Shown: positions 18,730 to 27,129 of the stretch, one piece after another | Numbering within the stretch: position 1 is the stretch's first letter | Layout: every line of letters starts with the position of its first letter | Assembly (NCBI GenBank): GCA_019058425.1 | Contig: JAHPYZ010000052.1 | Coordinates: forward strand, 1 to 34,741 | Source: Promethearchaeota archaeon | Lineage (GTDB): Archaea; Asgardarchaeota; Lokiarchaeia; Sigyniarchaeales; SOKP01 | Length of the DNA stretch: 34,741 bases | Direction: 5' to 3' | Translations under genes and position numbers: made by a program | Notes under the pieces: generated by a model | Told to the model about the DNA's origin: nothing | What the model saw: the letters and a program-made list of their open reading frames with translations, nothing else | The model's database searches: none

Positions 18730-21120
18730 CTACTTTTTACTTTTGAATTTAGTATAAAGTGCTTTATCTAAAAATCGTCCAATTTTACTGGCAATTTGAT
18801 TTCCAATTTCATATCTCTCTCCATTTAAGATATTCCTTCTTTCTTCTTGAGATGGCTTCCTAGTTAGTCTTTTTGTTAAAACTTTTTCAGTTATATCATT
18901 CACAATTCCCTTAATTTTTTCATAATTAGGTAATTTAATATCTGAAGTAAAATTTGCAATTTTCTCTACAGCGAATTTAAAAAATTCACTCATCAACTCA
19001 ATTGGATCTCCTTTTAATTCACTATGAAGCTTAATATTATCTGTAGCGATTTTACTATCTTTTTCTTGCCAATATAACTGATTTGGATTAATTCCAGGAC
19101 TATTAATCCTCATCATGGAACTTGTAATTCTACGTTCAATCCAATTTAAAGTACTTAATTCTTGTACTTCACGAATTTTTTTAGATATCTCCACTTTTTC
19201 TTTCTCTTTTAACTCTATTATTTGTTCAACTTCTGATTTACGACTTTTTTCAAACGTTTCAATTCTCTTAATTATATCATATCCTATACAATATGAAATT
19301 GGAGATATAATATCGGTTTTCAATTTTAGTTGAGCAATTTCGCTATATATTGGACTTACATTGCTTTTTAAATCAGAAATTGATTCTTTTAAAGATTTTT
19401 CTAGCAATCTTGCTAATATAAATCCGTTAACCAAGAAGGGCTGATTATTTGCGTTAAAAATTATAACTAATTCTTCCTGTCTTTTATTTATTCTCTTAAT
19501 AATCAACTCTTCGAGTTTTACCTTAATCCATTCTTCTGAATCCGTTGTACCATCCATTTTTTTTAATGCTAATAAATATAATGATCTATCATTAGAAACC
19601 TTAAGATAGACCTCAATTATTCTACTAAGCTGCCTTAATATCTTAGAAAGGATATAGAAGAATATATTTTTAGCAATTTCACTAAGAATATCTTCAAATT
19701 CTAAAACAAATAATAGATGAGAGTAACTTTTTAATTTTAATCCACCTATAAATACTTTATCTATAGCTTCCTTTTTTCTGATATATTGTATTAAATTATT
19801 TATTGTTGTACCTGTTTTTTCTTCCAAAAGTTTAATTATATCAGGATAGTTGTTTATCTCTTGACTTATTATGGTTAATAATTCAAATTCAGAAATATCC
19901 TTAGAATTATCTATAATATCTCTGATATTTATTATATTTTGCTCGGAAATCGCTTTTTTAGCTAAATAGATTAAATTTTGTTTTGGATCATTTAGAGATA
20001 CAATGTCTAGTTTTTTTATGTTATATCTAACCATGCTAGTTTTTACTTTTTCTGCTATATCTTCATCCAAATTGAAAAAATGTGAAATATTGTAAACTCC
20101 ATATTTCTGAAAAGTATAGATTATATCCTCAAATCCACATTCATTTATACCTTGTAAAAAATAGATAAAATCATTAGGATTCCTCTTTAGTTTTTGAAAT
20201 AAAGCTAATTTTAAAAAACTTAGAATTTTTGACTCAAACTGCTCATAATCAATTTTTTCTTTAAGTGCGTTTTCTATTTTATAAATAAGGTCTTTTTTAA
20301 GATTATTTGCTTCCATAATTACCTTCAATCCTGGTATTGAAATTGGAAACTTGTCAAAATTATAATCTAATATCTTTCTCTTTATCATTCTAACTGGCAT
20401 TGCTTCCGTTTGCAATTCTTTATATGATTTAAATTCAAAATCAGTACGAATTCTATCAATTGACCGGTTTAATGATGCTAATTCGATGAATTTATCTTCC
20501 TTTTCTTCTAATTCTAATTTTTTCTCCAAATCTACGGAGATATCTTTAAAAGCAGCTGTTTCATCCAAAATACCTTTTTTAACTTCATTACTTAAACCTA
20601 TTAAATCACTTATAAAATCATAAAAGTAGAATTGTGGATATTTCAAAATGATTTCCTGCAATTCTTGTTCAATTTTAACTTCAATATCCTTTAACATTCT
20701 CTCTTTTTGAATATCTTGAAGTGTTTCTTTTCTTTCTTCAATTAAAAAAGAAATCATGTTATTCTCTAAATCAATAATCTTATTTAATAGATTAACTTCT
20801 AAATTTAATGAATTTTTCAATAAAGAATCAACTTCTTCAATAATGACCTTTTTTTCTGAAAGCTCTAAATTCTTGGTTGAGTCAAAAGTAAACTTCTCTG
20901 TATCTAAAAGTTTTTCAACTCTAATTCCTAGACTGTGGTAAATATGCACGGTAGCTGTAGCGATTAACAAATCACTGAAACTAGTCTTCTTACTAATAAG
21001 TTCAAAGATTTTGTTTTTATCAGCTTCCCTTTTGAAATGAGATATTATTAAATCAACAGTTTGGAAAAATCTAAATGAACTTTCAACAGCAGTCGTTTTT
21101 CTTTTAACTCCACTTATCAT
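18730..21120 (-). CDS. Large helical protein of unknown function, coupled to the gene upstream
   Basis: Not recognised. About 796 residues, predicted almost entirely alpha-helical, with amphipathic and coiled-coil stretches (about 80-230 and 630-680) and a basic C-terminus. No P-loop, nuclease, protease or transmembrane motif is visible. Its ATG at 21118-21120 overlaps the TGA of the upstream gene as ATGA, with GGTGAGAG as Shine-Dalgarno, the classic arrangement for translational coupling. An in-frame ATG at 21135 would add five residues but lacks a good ribosome site. Tight coupling with a partner of similar size suggests a stoichiometric complex, perhaps a scaffold. The codon and base usage looks like its neighbours, so recent transfer is not indicated. 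Confidence 0.75.
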   Translation of the reverse strand: MISGVKRKTTAVESSFRFFQTVDLIISHFKREADKNKIFELISKKTSFSDLLIATATVHIYHSLGIRVEKLLDTEKFTFDSTKNLELSEKKVIIEEVDSLLKNSLNLEVNLLNKIIDLENNMISFLIEERKETLQDIQKERMLKDIEVKIEQELQEIILKYPQFYFYDFISDLIGLSNEVKKGILDETAAFKDISVDLEKKLELEEKEDKFIELASLNRSIDRIRTDFEFKSYKELQTEAMPVRMIKRKILDYNFDKFPISIPGLKVIMEANNLKKDLIYKIENALKEKIDYEQFESKILSFLKLALFQKLKRNPNDFIYFLQGINECGFEDIIYTFQKYGVYNISHFFNLDEDIAEKVKTSMVRYNIKKLDIVSLNDPKQNLIYLAKKAISEQNIINIRDIIDNSKDISEFELLTIISQEINNYPDIIKLLEEKTGTTINNLIQYIRKKEAIDKVFIGGLKLKSYSHLLFVLEFEDILSEIAKNIFFYILSKILRQLSRIIEVYLKVSNDRSLYLLALKKMDGTTDSEEWIKVKLEELIIKRINKRQEELVIIFNANNQPFLVNGFILARLLEKSLKESISDLKSNVSPIYSEIAQLKLKTDIISPISYCIGYDIIKRIETFEKSRKSEVEQIIELKEKEKVEISKKIREVQELSTLNWIERRITSSMMRINSPGINPNQLYWQEKDSKIATDNIKLHSELKGDPIELMSEFFKFAVEKIANFTSDIKLPNYEKIKGIVNDITEKVLTKRLTRKPSQEERRNILNGERYEIGNQIASKIGRFLDKALYTKFKSKK

Positions 21121-23423
21121 AAGTCTCTCACCCATTCTCTATAAACTTCTTTAAAGTTATCTGATAACTCAAATCTGGCGTTATTATGCCAAAATTTAAA
21201 ATCAATTATATGAAAAAGTTCACCTTTGAATAATTCTTTTTCTTCATTTGTCAAAATATGTTTTAGAATTACTGTTAATGGTCTTGGTATAAGTTTTGAA
21301 AAATATTTCAATTCGGTTTTCTTAATATAGTTATAAAATGTCTCATCTATGTCGAGACTAAAAAATTTAGAAGGAATTAAATTCTCTAATTGGAGATTTA
21401 TTTCATTTAATTCATTTTTGATATTATTTTTCACATATTGGGGAAATTCTATATTAATACCAATACTAAGCTCATAATTTTTATAAAATTCAAGTAATAG
21501 ACTCCTTTCTTCAGAATTAGTTATTTTTGCTATATAGTTGTCTAGGAAATATGGAAAATTTTTTATATTTTGTTCTTTTGATTCTCTTTCCTCGAAATAC
21601 CCAATAAAATCGTCATATACTTCTGCTAAGGTCCATAATCTATGTTCTTCTGGTTTAAGATATTTCTTTGAGTAATCTTTTATCCAATCCAAAATATAGA
21701 ATTTCCATTCAAGACTTATACCTCCTATTCTCTTTTCTAAAAATCTATGAAATCTATTTGAAAATGTTACAGGATCACTAATTTCTGCGTCAGGTTCTTC
21801 TTTAATATATCGATTAATTGTAGAATGTCTTAGAACATAGCTCAATAAATAATTTAATTCACTTGAAAATTTTTTAAATTTCTCTATATGATCTTTTATT
21901 GTATCTAAGGTACTTTCCATCTGGATTTCTGTAAATGAGATCAAATCATCTATTTTTAGACCTATATCGTCAAAGAAGGCATCAATATTATTAGTAATTA
22001 AGGATTTAAACTCCCGTATTAGTTCTTTTTCATCATAGATAAGATTTTTTCTAAGTAGAATTGAATGTGTTTCAATTTGATTAAAAATATATGCTTTAAA
22101 TTTTTTAATTAATCTTTGACCTAAAATTTTTGCTGGTTTTTGCTCACGGTCGAATTTCTGATTTAGATTTTCTGATAAATTTATTGTTAGAGTTTTTAAT
22201 CTACGATATGAAAGATATCTTGGAAGTGATTTCTTTATGATATTAAAACTATTATTAAGTATTTCAGCAAAATAATTGAATACTGAACTTAATTCTATTA
22301 TTCGTAAATTTTCTTTTTGAGTTATTGACTGTTCGATAAAAAATTTTGCAATATTCCATATATTTTCAAAATTTTCGCTTTCTAATTTTCCTTTATTTAG
22401 TATAAAATGCTCGAATTTATTTAATAATTCCTTTAAATCCCCCATTTCCCCCGTACTGAGGAAACTCCTAGAATATTCCAAAAATTTATTGAAAAATCCA
22501 TGTAAATCAACAAATTCTTTATTTAATTTGGAGATTAACCACTCTGCCGTATGAGATTCCATATATTTATCTATTTTATCATTAATGTAACTAATTATAA
22601 AGTGTATTATCTCATCTTGAGATTCATCTATTGTTCCAGTATTTGCTAAGTTAATGAGGTTAGTACCTAAATTCAATGTTTTATCTACTATAAAATTAGC
22701 ACTGGGTTCAGATATTGAAAATTTAAGATGTTCAATTGCTTGTTGACCATCAAAAGGCGTTTTTATCTTTTGGAATGTTGGATTTATGAACTTAATCTCT
22801 ATAGGTTTTTTATACCATAAAACTTCAACATTGGAGAGTACCTTACCATATGTAGTTAACATTTCTTTTTCTGTTGGAAGGGTTTTACTCAATCCAATTA
22901 ATTTTTTATTCCATTTTTCTTCAACTAGTTCCCCATAAAGTTTTTTATTGAACCTTGATGCAAATTTGTTATATATTTGCTGTTTATTTTCTTTACTTAA
23001 TTCTGGACGTTCAGAAAACTCCTCAACCTCAAAAAATAACCTACTTATATTATCTAGCGATTCTCTAGATTTATGTATATCTAAAACACCTGTTTCTGGC
23101 TTTAAAGCTAGTAATAAGCTTTCACAATCCTTATATTTTCCTGGTAAAAAGATCATTGATTGAGGGTATATATTCAGTTGAGAGCTTTTTTCATCAAAAT
23201 TGTATAATTCAAATTCAATACTATATACTTCTGCTCCCGTGTAATCTCGTAAAATCGCATTATACATCATTAAATATTTTACAACTTCTTGTGAAAGCTC
23301 ATTTACTTTCTTTTTAGTGAGCCTTCCTGGACCAATTACATCTCCAACAATAACGTCATTTGGCGATAAATACCCAAAGATCAATGAATATTGATAACCG
23401 ATAGATTCTCTTGTTGTTATCAT
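21117..23423 (-). CDS. Large protein of unknown function, partner of the downstream helical protein
   Basis: Not recognised. The 768 residues open with an alpha/beta segment of about 130 residues (SLIFGYLSPNDVIVGDVIG, YSIEFELYNFDEKSSQLNIYP, MIFLPGKY), followed by a helical body with many amphipathic repeats to the end. No catalytic motif, metal site or membrane segment is seen. It is the first gene of a two-gene unit; its stop overlaps the next start by four bases. About 360 bases of intergenic DNA separate it from the divergent roadblock gene. The proximity to roadblock and longin proteins may point to a GTPase-regulatory or cytoskeletal scaffold, but this is only a guess from location. Confidence 0.75.
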   Translation of the reverse strand: MITTRESIGYQYSLIFGYLSPNDVIVGDVIGPGRLTKKKVNELSQEVVKYLMMYNAILRDYTGAEVYSIEFELYNFDEKSSQLNIYPQSMIFLPGKYKDCESLLLALKPETGVLDIHKSRESLDNISRLFFEVEEFSERPELSKENKQQIYNKFASRFNKKLYGELVEEKWNKKLIGLSKTLPTEKEMLTTYGKVLSNVEVLWYKKPIEIKFINPTFQKIKTPFDGQQAIEHLKFSISEPSANFIVDKTLNLGTNLINLANTGTIDESQDEIIHFIISYINDKIDKYMESHTAEWLISKLNKEFVDLHGFFNKFLEYSRSFLSTGEMGDLKELLNKFEHFILNKGKLESENFENIWNIAKFFIEQSITQKENLRIIELSSVFNYFAEILNNSFNIIKKSLPRYLSYRRLKTLTINLSENLNQKFDREQKPAKILGQRLIKKFKAYIFNQIETHSILLRKNLIYDEKELIREFKSLITNNIDAFFDDIGLKIDDLISFTEIQMESTLDTIKDHIEKFKKFSSELNYLLSYVLRHSTINRYIKEEPDAEISDPVTFSNRFHRFLEKRIGGISLEWKFYILDWIKDYSKKYLKPEEHRLWTLAEVYDDFIGYFEERESKEQNIKNFPYFLDNYIAKITNSEERSLLLEFYKNYELSIGINIEFPQYVKNNIKNELNEINLQLENLIPSKFFSLDIDETFYNYIKKTELKYFSKLIPRPLTVILKHILTNEEKELFKGELFHIIDFKFWHNNARFELSDNFKEVYREWVRDL

Positions 23424-24284: not shown

Positions 24285-24302
24285 TTTTTATTTAAAATTA
24301 AA
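24285..24302 (+). promoter_or_regulatory. Possible TATA element for the leader-trpB2 transcript
   Basis: The stretch TTTTTATTTAAAATTAAA lies 42-59 bases before the leader ATG at 24344, so a transcript starting about 25 bases after it would carry a short 5' region before the leader peptide. The AT-rich background makes this weak. Confidence 0.3.
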
Positions 24303-24343
24303 TAGTTTAATTAAAAGGTTTAATAAGCTTTTTATTTACAATT

Positions 24344-24394
24344 ATGGCAACTGTAAATATAACTTGTTGGCAGTGGCCCTGGCAGTGGCAATAA
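24344..24394 (+). CDS. Tryptophan-rich leader peptide upstream of trpB2 (candidate attenuator)
   Basis: ATG at 24344 opens a 16-codon frame ending TAA at 24392-24394: MATVNITCWQWPWQWQ. Codons 9, 11, 13 and 15 are all TGG, so four of sixteen residues are Trp, and the next gene 143 bases on is tryptophan synthase beta. This is the layout of bacterial trp leader peptides, in which ribosomes stall when charged tRNA-Trp is scarce. The Trp codons form a perfect direct repeat whose copies can each pair with a downstream segment, and T-runs follow. No strong Shine-Dalgarno precedes the ATG (AAAAGG at 24313-24318 is far), so initiation may be near-leaderless. The proposed role is inferred from codon content and position only. 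Confidence 0.65.
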   Translation: MATVNITCWQWPWQWQ

Positions 24395-24404
24395 AGCCAC
24401 TTGC
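24368..24404 (+). promoter_or_regulatory. Mutually exclusive hairpins over the leader Trp codons
   Basis: TGGCAGTGGC occurs twice, at 24368-24377 and 24380-24389. The AGTGGC end of either copy can pair with GCCACT at 24396-24401; two further pairs with GC at 24403-24404 extend the helix across a bulged T. The second copy gives a six-base loop (AATAAA). A ribosome stalled on the Trp codons would cover both copies and free the GCCACT segment. A T6 run follows at 24420-24425. Confidence 0.5.
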
Positions 24405-24438
24405 AATGGATTAAATTTATTTTTTCCCTTTAAAAATG

Positions 24439-24464
24439 CTCTCAAAACATAAGAGTCTCTTTTT
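24439..24464 (+). terminator. Candidate terminator between leader and trpB2
   Basis: CTCT (24439-24442) and AGAG (24452-24455) can form a short hairpin with a nine-base loop, followed directly by TCTCTTTTT (24456-24464). Archaeal RNA polymerase terminates at oligo-T tracts, so this could be the attenuation site. The stem is short. Confidence 0.35.
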
Positions 24465-24471
24465 ATACGCG

Positions 24472-24522
24472 CATTAAATATATTGATTTCCAATATCTTA
24501 ATGACACACGTCTTAAGATGTG
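24472..24522 (+). promoter_or_regulatory. Two dyads immediately upstream of trpB2
   Basis: CATTAA (24472-24477) pairs with TTAATG (24498-24503), with ATATTG/CAATAT inside, giving a two-part hairpin. Next comes CACA...CTTAAG...TGTG (24505-24522), an imperfect palindrome 16 bases before the trpB2 start. They may be RNA structures of the leader or an operator for a Trp-responsive repressor. Confidence 0.35.
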
Positions 24523-24537
24523 AAAAAATGAACATAT

Positions 24538-25953
24538 ATGGTAATAAAAATGGTAGATTATTTCAATGGAAGGATATTTTTACAACCAAATGAGATACCG
24601 AAAGATTGGGTAAATATTTTACCGGATTTACCTTCTTCTATGACGCCTTTAATTAATCCAATGGATGGGAAACCTGCACCTCCAGAAATGGCATTTGCAA
24701 TTTTTCCTAAAGAATGTGTAATGCAAGAAGTCTCTCAAGAGCCTAGAGTACCCATTCCTAAAATGTTAAGGGAAATTTTCGCGAGTACATATCGACCTAG
24801 TCCTCTTCATCGCGCTTTGAGATTGGAAAAAGAATTAGGGATAGAAGGAGATGATATTAAAATATTTTATAAAAATGAGTCATTATCTCCTACAGGTTCA
24901 CATAAACCTAATACTGCTATAACTCAAGCATATTATGCGAAAAAAGAGGGAACAAAAGAACTGGTCACCGAAACAGGTGCGGGACAATGGGGTTCAGGTT
25001 TGGCTTATGGATGTAATTTGTTTAACCTTAAATGTACTGTTTATATGGTAAGAGCAAGCTTTTTCCAAAAACCAGGTAGAAAAATTTTGATGAGATCCTT
25101 TAATGCTGATGTCCATGCGAGTCCTTCAAAGTTAACTGAATCAGGAAATTCTTTCTTAGAAAGGGATCCTGAACATCCGGGAAGTTTAGGTATCGCGATA
25201 TCTGAAGCACTGGAGCATAGTATGAGAAGTGATATAATAAAATATTCTCTTGGAAGTGTTGTAAATTTTGTACTTTTACACCAAACCATTATAGGACAAG
25301 AAACGAAAATTCAACTGGCAAAAGTGGGAATTGAAGAACCAGATATATTAATTGGTTGTATGGGAGGTGGTTCAAATTTTGCGGGATTGATGATTCCATT
25401 TGCTATAGATAAACTAAATGGAAAAAGTCCAAATATGGAAATAATTGGTGTAGAACCTAGAGCTTGTCCAAGTGTATGTAAAGGAGATTATAGATGGGAC
25501 TATGGGGACTCATCAATGAAAGGACCCATAGTAAAGATGCATACATTAGGACATTCCTTTATTCCAAGCCCAATTCATGCAGGAGGATTAAGATATCATG
25601 GAATGGCTCCTATAATTTCAATTTTACATAACAATCGTGTCATTAATGCTACTATGCACCATCAAACCGCGGTAATCGGAGCCGGTATTCAATTCGCTAA
25701 GGCTGAAGGAATATTGCCGGCACCAGAAGCTGCACATGCTGTAAAAGAAGCAATTGATCAAGCATTGATAGCTAAAGAAAATAATGAAAAGAAGGTTATT
25801 CTATTCAATCTTAGTGGGCATGGATTCTTTGATTTATTAGCTTATAAGGAGTATATGACTGGAAATTTAAAGGACTATGAACTTCCTACGCAAGAAATCC
25901 AAAAAACATTAGCTTCGGAAGAAATGCCTGTTATTGATGAATCTCAATTTTAA
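24538..25953 (+). CDS. trpB: Tryptophan synthase beta chain, TrpB2 type
   Basis: A PLP enzyme that condenses indole with serine to tryptophan. The PLP lysine is Lys123 in GSHKPNTA. The substrate loop reads ETGAGQWG (145-152), and the phosphate-binding glycine loop is GCMGGGSN (273-280). The long N-terminal extension before the lysine and the 471-residue length fit the TrpB2 subgroup (TIGR01415), which often acts without TrpA or as an indole-salvage enzyme; no trpA is in the window. The start could be ATG at 24538 or the fifth codon ATG at 24550; neither has a clear Shine-Dalgarno. The upstream 143 bases carry the Trp-rich leader and possible attenuator, suggesting control by tryptophan supply. 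Confidence 0.93.
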   Translation: MVIKMVDYFNGRIFLQPNEIPKDWVNILPDLPSSMTPLINPMDGKPAPPEMAFAIFPKECVMQEVSQEPRVPIPKMLREIFASTYRPSPLHRALRLEKELGIEGDDIKIFYKNESLSPTGSHKPNTAITQAYYAKKEGTKELVTETGAGQWGSGLAYGCNLFNLKCTVYMVRASFFQKPGRKILMRSFNADVHASPSKLTESGNSFLERDPEHPGSLGIAISEALEHSMRSDIIKYSLGSVVNFVLLHQTIIGQETKIQLAKVGIEEPDILIGCMGGGSNFAGLMIPFAIDKLNGKSPNMEIIGVEPRACPSVCKGDYRWDYGDSSMKGPIVKMHTLGHSFIPSPIHAGGLRYHGMAPIISILHNNRVINATMHHQTAVIGAGIQFAKAEGILPAPEAAHAVKEAIDQALIAKENNEKKVILFNLSGHGFFDLLAYKEYMTGNLKDYELPTQEIQKTLASEEMPVIDESQF

Positions 25954-26058: not shown

Positions 26059-27129
26059 TTGAATATTTATTCGATAATAATTATTTGCACTTTGTATATC
26101 TATGGATTTATTCTTTTGTACATTACTTTTTTAGCAAGAAGAAATAATGAGAAAGGTGCTTTTATCAATAATTTAGCAAATGGATTGGTCTTAATAATAT
26201 CAATAACTGTTAATCTCATTTTAACAAAAATCTTAAACCTCATTCATAAAGAATTGTTAGTTTTTCCATTTAATATTTTAATGATCGGTTTTATTGGGAT
26301 ATACCTTCCTCTATTTTATCTCTTTATTTCTCGTGAGAAGCATAGAATTAGAAATAAAAACAAAAATATTGAAAATAATAAACTAAAACCACATACAGAG
26401 CTTCCTCTTAAGTATGATATATATAGGAAATTAACCCATTTAGTAGTTTTAGGAATAGTTCTTTTTTATTTTACTCTTGGTTTTTTAATCCAAAATTTCT
26501 TCATATACCTATTAGAATACATACCTGATTTCATTTCAAATTTATTCCGTATTGGTGGAGATATTATGGTTTTTACCCAAAATTTAGTGGTTTTTTTAGT
26601 GGGAATTTCTTTGTTAGGGTTATTGACTGCAGATTTTGTTAGAATATTAAATCCCGAAAGTTACCCATTAAAACCTGTTAATCAATTATTAAGAGAAAAA
26701 GAATTACATTTTAGAGTAGGACCTCACATTTCAATGAGTATTGGATGTTTTTCAATAATAATAATTTTTGGCTTAATTCAACCAATAGGACCTGTAATCA
26801 TTTGTACATCAATGGTCATGTCTATTTTTGGCGATATGGCCTCTAATTTAATTGGTAGGACAATGGGACGGAAAAAAATTAGAAGAACAAATAAAACCTA
26901 TGAAGGTTTAATTTCCGGTATAATTATTTCCTTCATATCTGGATTAGTTTTTTTATATTTAATTGAAAATTATTATGGATTTAGATTATCAATAATATTT
27001 TTAATTCCATTAGTGGGTGCATTGATAATCGGATTATTGGATTATTTAGATTTAGAGATTGATGATAATTTATCTTTCAATTTCTCTTTATCAATTGTGC
27101 TATTTTTAATCTCAATTCCATTAATATGA
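26059..27129 (+). CDS. Polyprenol/dolichol kinase-like integral membrane protein
   Basis: A 356-residue polytopic membrane protein with about eight to ten hydrophobic segments. After a charged loop (residues about 96-120) come the family landmarks RKLTHL, REKELHFRVGPHISMSIGC, and SIFGDMASNLIGRTMGRKKI followed by NKTYEG and GIISGF-like transmembrane helices. The GD-x-A-x3-G-x3-G-[RK] and KT-x-EG motifs define the SEC59/DGK1/CdsA-like group, which includes dolichol and phytol kinases and CTP-dependent lipid kinases. It probably phosphorylates a polyprenol for archaeal glycosylation or lipid synthesis, at the cell membrane. CDP-archaeol synthase (CarS-like) is an alternative. The start is TTG (26059). 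Confidence 0.78.
   Translation: MNIYSIIIICTLYIYGFILLYITFLARRNNEKGAFINNLANGLVLIISITVNLILTKILNLIHKELLVFPFNILMIGFIGIYLPLFYLFISREKHRIRNKNKNIENNKLKPHTELPLKYDIYRKLTHLVVLGIVLFYFTLGFLIQNFFIYLLEYIPDFISNLFRIGGDIMVFTQNLVVFLVGISLLGLLTADFVRILNPESYPLKPVNQLLREKELHFRVGPHISMSIGCFSIIIIFGLIQPIGPVIICTSMVMSIFGDMASNLIGRTMGRKKIRRTNKTYEGLISGIIISFISGLVFLYLIENYYGFRLSIIFLIPLVGALIIGLLDYLDLEIDDNLSFNFSLSIVLFLISIPLI

Follow-up and report, generated by a model that had tools for sequence, protein, structure and literature searches.

Tiny Trp-rich leader peptides appear to switch tryptophan genes in Asgard archaea

Attenuation of the bacterial trp operon is ribosome-mediated and acts through the trpL leader peptide. A short frame with four Trp codons, located ahead of trpB2 in an archaeal genome, raises the question of whether archaeal trp genes may also be controlled by translation of a leader. 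The frame lies in contig JAHPYZ010000052.1 (positions 1 to 34,741, called the window here), which is contig C59 of the 4.64-Mb genome G000; the nearest named relatives of this genome are Lokiarchaeota MAGs. A first-pass annotation had described a frame of ATG, 16 codons and TAA with four alternate TGG codons, followed after 143 bases by a recognisable trpB2. The frame is present in the sequence exactly as described (Table 1), and the gene behind it was confirmed as TrpB2 by NCBIfam models (NF009057, E 9e-186; TIGR01415, E 1e-169). The gap of 143 bases holds for a start at 24538, but ATG 24550, the start kept in relatives, is probably the right one on comparison; GGTAAT just upstream of this ATG was kept in many relatives, as seen by eye.

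An antisense gene over the leader was considered and rejected, since the minus-strand open frame at 24332-24535 was not kept in relatives; antisense open frames of at least 50 codons cover the leader in 6 of 42 trpB2 loci of the family. Elsewhere in the window, three long frames (18730-23423 and 26059-27129) had no Pfam or NCBIfam match at E 0.001. A 102-nt tRNA gene at 1304-1405, just 5' of valS, was found by Rfam and missed by ARAGORN; it looks intron-containing, with the anticodon CGC by eye. At gathering score, tRNA was the only Rfam match in the window.

Table 1. Coordinates of the leader, its associated elements and trpB2 in the window
Feature	Position	Strand	Basis and remarks
TATA-like promoter box (TTTTTATTTAAAA)	24285..24297	+	by eye; 59 nt 5' of the leader ATG
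Helix P1, 5' arm (5' leader region)	24316..24324	+	best contiguous helix
Trp-rich leader frame	24344..24394	+	ATGGCAACTGTAAATATAACTTGTTGGCAGTGGCCCTGGCAGTGGCAATAA = MATVNITCWQWPWQWQ*, 16 codons including ATG, then TAA
Four Trp codons, alternate positions	24368..24388	+	TGG at 24368, 24374, 24380, 24386
Hairpin P2 (AGTGGC / GCCACT), leader stop codon in loop	24384..24401	+	fixed-register pairing
Helix P1, 3' arm	24410..24418	+	best contiguous helix
U-rich tract (TTTATTTTTTCCCTTT), candidate premature termination site	24416..24431	+	base composition
Conserved hairpin F (GCGC-ATTAA ... ATTG-ATTTC-CAAT ... TTAAT-G-ACA-CAC)	24461..24518	+	covariation
trpB2 (TrpB-like tryptophan synthase beta, PLP enzyme)	24538..25953	+	NCBIfam; conserved start probably ATG 24550

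TrpB2 was present in 44 of 58 relatives and in 61 of the 83 genomes of the class. Sixty-four regions upstream of trpB2 were taken, leaving out two genes, a split trpB2 in G041 and a partial one in G049; 63 of them were aligned, and L140, which had no TrpB2 alignment, was scanned separately. A Trp-rich short frame was found 5' of trpB2 in 54 of the 63 aligned regions (54/64 counting L140). Forty-eight of these leaders came from an automatic scan for short frames with TGG-NNN-TGG, and six with other Trp spacing were added by reading (L040, L041, L043, L124, L129 and L130). The frame, its Trp codons, its start and its stop were kept in the 54 regions, and the other codons and the flanks varied, across four families of the order, other orders of the class and a single genome from outside it; the first-pass annotation had proposed this comparison, and its outcome favours a leader. 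In other families of the order the peptides end in ..NWAWPRRE, ..PWAWRP, ..YWAWREL or ..TWPWH, in other orders of the class in ..WRWQWCWRWQ (L141), ..FWCWQ (L142) or ..IWPWNN (L143); the peptide of L145, from a genome of another class, ends in ..FWAWRWLTWP. The leader was absent in six loci of the window's family (L011, L016-L019 and L139) and, by scan and reading, in L135, L138 and L144 of other families; in L140 no TGG-NNN-TGG frame was found and two copies of TGTACA were present. Retention of the nucleotide sequence with loss of the frame, which had been named as grounds against the proposal, was not seen, and the leaderless loci lacked the sequence as well. Among eight non-Asgard TrpB2 loci (L119 and L120 left out) there was no alternate-Trp frame, and L116 had a frame with two distant Trp codons. 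The leader regions of family f7 (L141, L142, L180 and L181) share a GGACTGGAATTAA-like stretch 5' of the Trp codons, which might represent a promoter element or else a longer frame.

Leaders were also found before trpD and trpE. IGPS (trpC) was matched in 22 of the 58 relatives, 19 of the matches being strong; the partial matches of G010, G024 and G032 (E 6e-6 to 2e-4) were scored as no trpC, that of G010 lying over the family cut-off together with its neighbours. Around the 19 strong trpC loci, a Trp leader precedes trpD in 16 (15 in the set of 69 leaders described below, plus L181); none was found in L179 and L182, and the contig of L163 (G048) was too short to judge. Eighteen trpD operons in total carry a leader (the 15, L181, L234 and L236), and trpE carries one in five genomes (L235, L237, L238, L240 and L241); all 18 trpD and all five trpE genes were confirmed by NCBIfam. 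A short frame of ~100 codons lies between leader and trpD in L183 and L236. At L239 (G034:C12:151500-156000) a Trp leader precedes a decayed trpE; G034 has no trpC match and bears a trpA fragment on the same contig, and L239 may be left over from a lost pathway, its leader still in place.

A sequence profile of the leader end (model R1, 51 sequences) was searched in the 83 genomes of the class and gave 59 matches in 52 genomes. Because 50 of these were training loci, only the nine new matches test its specificity. Two of the nine lie before trpD (L234 and L236), five before trpE and one before the decayed trpE of L239, and the only one that is not before a trp gene was the weakest (E 0.0058); by this comparison the leader is specific to trp genes. 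Two training leaders (L170 and L172) escaped the profile, and genomes without a match are therefore not proven leaderless. The kept frames before trpB2, trpD and trpE lend support to the first-pass reading that trpB2 may be controlled through translation of the leader peptide. A search for His leaders gave a weak negative result, because hisG need not be the first gene: HisG was present in 16 of 31 genomes, and 15 loci with their flanks held four frames with at least 4 His in 9 residues, none of them convincing. None of the five His-codon runs in the window's genome was in a short His frame.

The coding signature was assessed in the set of 69 leader loci, with L181 outside the set and L015 left out of the ATG test owing to too little upstream sequence. 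For frames with several possible starts, the ATG near the Trp codons was chosen. ATG starts 60 of the 69 leaders, TTG or GTG was needed in the other nine, and the leader of L181 has no ATG, GTG or TTG start. An in-frame ATG at least 4 codons 5' of the first Trp, with no stop between, was observed in 58 of 68 loci against 8.05 expected from shuffled upstream sequence, and in 36 of 43 representatives against 5.3 expected. The leaders are 11-48 codons long with 2-6 Trp each (only two Trp in 23/69), and the last Trp lies 1-4 codons from the stop in 65 of the 69. The comparison thus brings out a coding signature and conservation of the Trp codons, and the leader frame looks translated. Across families the peptides have little in common except Trp, so that conservation lies in the codons and not in a working small protein; the only conserved part of the peptide is the run of 2-6 Trp codons adjoining the stop.

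Leader position tracks the biosynthetic capacity of the cell. In the window's family, trpB2 has a leader in 20 of 20 genomes with trpB2 but without trpC, and in only one of six genomes with trpC; the other five have a trpD leader, and two of these (G022 and G031) have a trpE leader as well. This association of trpB2-leader placement with trpC gave a Fisher p of 9e-5, ignoring kinship. The window's own genome gave neither a trpC nor a trpA match in family searches.

TrpY and the leader are distributed oppositely in the genomes compared. TrpY was matched in 6 of the 58 relatives, strongly in five (G047, G051, G052, G055 and G057, two of them over the curated cut-off) and weakly in G048 (part of the model, E 8e-4), and it was not found in the window's genome. 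A leader is present somewhere in 43 of the 58 genomes, among which TrpY occurs in G051, in addition to the weak partial match of G048; in G051 the TrpY gene stands beside trpB2, and the leader is a doubtful two-Trp frame (L143). Among the leaderless genomes with an examined trp gene (G042, G047, G052 and G057), three of four have TrpY, and its gene is divergent from trpB2 in G052 and G057 and, by coordinates, in G047. Eleven of the 58 genomes had no examined trp gene. The opposition of TrpY and leader gave a Fisher p of 0.001, ignoring kinship. The sequence TGTACA, which we take to be the TrpY box at the promoter, was absent in the 69 leader loci from 200 nt 5' of the leader start through the stop. 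In leaderless loci, TGTACA was seen 5' of trpB2 in L138, L144 and L140 and 5' of trpE in L182; in L138, L144 and L140 a TrpY gene is divergent from trpB2.

Several elements surround the frame in the window (Table 1). Many of the 69 loci have a TATA-like match ~50-63 nt ahead of the leader ATG, several being without one, and this placement argues against a trpB2 transcript starting 3' of 24394. The arms of helix P1 are often 5-20 nt 5' of the leader ATG and often 20-35 nt 3' of the stop. Free duplex folding was uninformative for P1 (mean z -0.7 over the 69 loci, 9 below -2), and contiguous helices were therefore scored. Cognate P1 arms pair better than non-cognate ones, a result reached in 0 of 300 permutations of 52 family loci, and the cognate advantage holds in other families too (300/300 permutations) with quite different sequences. 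Scored alone, P1 had p<=0.05 in 24 of the 69 loci, and in the window it was not significant (p 0.23). For hairpin P2, the fixed register gave 158 of 234 pairs in 39 distinct rows from the 52 family loci, the best of 5000 permutations being 149; this is a sharper test than contiguous-helix scoring against shuffles, under which just 10 of 69 loci had p<=0.05. A third helix, from the start codon to the first Trp codons, was found in 12 of 52 family loci only, and 29 of 500 permutations reached it. From 30 to 60 nt after the stop, the family loci are G-poor and have a T fraction of 0.52 compared with 0.39 upstream, with T exceeding A in 51 of 52; in other families T exceeds A in the tract after P1 in 14 of 17 loci. 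The helices and the U-rich tract thus emerge from the comparison of loci.

Hairpin F was found by pattern in 47 of 52 family leaders, ~100 nt after the leader stop, and its covariation score was above all 500 shuffles (44 distinct rows). RNAalifold gave no consensus structure for F, and F had no Rfam match. A model trained on F (R2) scored the window's F at E 6.7e-13 and gave 20 matches in 19 genomes of the genus, 13 of them at trp leaders and seven at E 1e-4 or weaker; two of the weak ones are the reverse strand of F, and L243 and L244 are not before trp genes. The distance from F to the leader stop is 64-113 nt (47 loci), to the annotated trpB2 start 39-66 nt (41 loci) and to trpD 54 to 325 nt (6 loci). 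As a conserved structured RNA element, F thus goes with the leader rather than with the gene. Against shuffles, the leader core by itself showed only slightly better folding (z -1.56), and the whole 241-nt upstream stretch gave z -2.88. P1, P2 and F are mutually compatible in the window's family, where no mutually exclusive terminator/antiterminator pair of the bacterial type was recognised; overlapping alternative arms were seen, by eye, only in L143 and L145. None of 20 leader loci matched an Rfam covariance model (T-box, trp leader and others) at E<=1.

In Asgard archaea, the trp genes appear to be switched through translation of a tiny Trp-rich peptide encoded ahead of them. We propose, with a probability of about 0.7, that translation of the leader monitors charged tRNA-Trp and thereby selects either premature termination or read-through. 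Sensing of the Trp supply by the leader is well supported by the sequence comparison; we infer termination as the output, the direction of the response, the role of F and the coupling. Ribosomes on the leader frame would read the supply of charged tRNA-Trp. When Trp is ample, the ribosome would complete the frame and leave, and the leader RNA would then fold, P1 linking the 5' side with the stretch ~20-35 nt after the stop and P2 closing around the stop codon; a polymerase without a trailing ribosome would halt in the U-rich tract, through archaeal U-tract or FttA-dependent termination. When Trp is scarce, the ribosome would stall at the Trp codons and keep P1 and P2 open, and with the stalled ribosome close behind the polymerase, transcription would proceed through F into trpB2 or, at other loci, into trpD operons or trpEG. 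FttA is described in passages of one paper as preferring U-rich RNA and cutting behind the polymerase, and its authors hypothesise there that a coupled ribosome excludes it (PMC11616081). The leader end, some 30-60 nt 5' of the U-rich tract, fits well with such an exclusion. We lean slightly towards regarding these leaders as an Asgard family of Trp-codon attenuators with an architecture of its own (Trp codons at the stop codon, the long-range helix P1, the U-rich tract and hairpin F), in which the stalled ribosome would shield the polymerase from U-tract or FttA termination.

The same Trp-codon sensor might instead act on the trp mRNA, the stalled ribosome altering its translation or stability and not transcription. 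The conserved hairpin F at a short distance from the annotated trpB2 start would suit such an output, as would a small hairpin just 5' of the trpB2 start, seen by eye in part of the family. However, the distance of F is fixed to the leader stop and is not kept relative to the gene, as the trpD loci show, and covering of the ribosome site by F is therefore not general; termination also accords with a U-rich tract following P1, and we consider an output on the mRNA rather unlikely. In a TnaC-like mechanism, the signal would be arrest of the nascent peptide induced by Trp and not starvation for charged tRNA. While a Trp-rich peptide ending at the stop codon is in keeping with it, the peptides repeat Trp with no fixed pattern across families, and the genes downstream make Trp and do not degrade it, so that arrest of this kind seems very improbable.

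Two further explanations take the frame to be incidental or accidental. The regular 6-base spacing of the TGG repeats and the partial conservation of their DNA within the family could point to an RNA or DNA binding site, for a TRAP-like protein or as an operator. The excess of in-frame ATG over the roughly 8 expected and the many leaders with only two Trp speak against this, the spacing shifts by whole codons with the frame kept (WHCFWHR, WHGLWRF), and other families keep the peptide pattern but little of the DNA; a binding site is thus scarcely probable. As to a chance open frame, the window's genome contains 85 copies of three alternate TGGs (TGGNNNTGGNNNTGG) on both strands, roughly one in every 109 kb of strand, against 41 copies of the reversed pattern; a single case would therefore prove little. 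Chance was nevertheless rejected and is given a negligible probability, in view of the recurrence of such frames in relatives before trpB2, trpD and trpE, the profile matches, the ATG excess and the 22-base Trp-codon core, which has a single occurrence in the 4.64-Mb genome even when 3 mismatches are tolerated.

The proposed switch resembles bacterial trp attenuation in that a short tandem-Trp frame stands after a putative promoter and ahead of trp biosynthesis genes, with RNA helices and a U-rich tract around it. It differs in its archaeal host, in the Trp codons at the end of the frame adjoining the stop, in the long-range P1 joining both sides of the frame and in F ~100 nt after the stop, and in that no bacterial-type antiterminator/terminator pair was recognised in the window's family and no Rfam match was obtained in 20 leader loci. 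T-box RNAs also sense tRNA charging ahead of amino acid genes, but they bind the tRNA directly, without translation, and the T-box model had no Rfam match in the window or in the 20 leader loci. The likeness to TrpY is Trp-responsive control of archaeal trp genes, suggested here by sequence, whereas TrpY is a DNA-binding repressor with its own operator. TnaC likewise involves a Trp-responsive leader peptide, as is proposed here, but its arrest by free Trp is described as lying ahead of a catabolic operon (PMC8429421), while repeated Trp codons stand ahead of biosynthetic genes here.

The first-pass annotation named DNA-binding repressors such as TrpY as the background for archaeal trp control, to which one regulator should be added: a 2019 paper describes, besides TrpY, an activator of aromatic amino acid genes in Thermococcus, Tar (TK0271), and remarks that, TrpY aside, knowledge of Trp control in archaea was scant (PMC6737238). 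According to a 2021 paper, archaea had no known attenuation or antitermination mechanism (PMC8448881), and another source includes archaea in a broad statement about upstream frames acting by attenuation, the passage giving no archaeal example (PMC10219788). No report of archaeal leader-peptide attenuation was found in the open papers searched, in part of their text, with most subscription papers and all preprints outside that scope. Such control is thus known from bacteria and not from archaea in the literature searched, and a report elsewhere is possible.

The leader would tie TrpB2 to the Trp supply in genomes that gave neither a trpC nor a trpA match, as if the enzyme were making Trp from indole. 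If the proposed mechanism is true, U-tract or FttA termination would gain a regulatory job, and organisms that are very difficult to work with would come with a natural Trp reporter. Transcription-translation coupling in Asgard archaea would likewise become directly testable, through a leader whose action depends on a ribosome following the polymerase closely.
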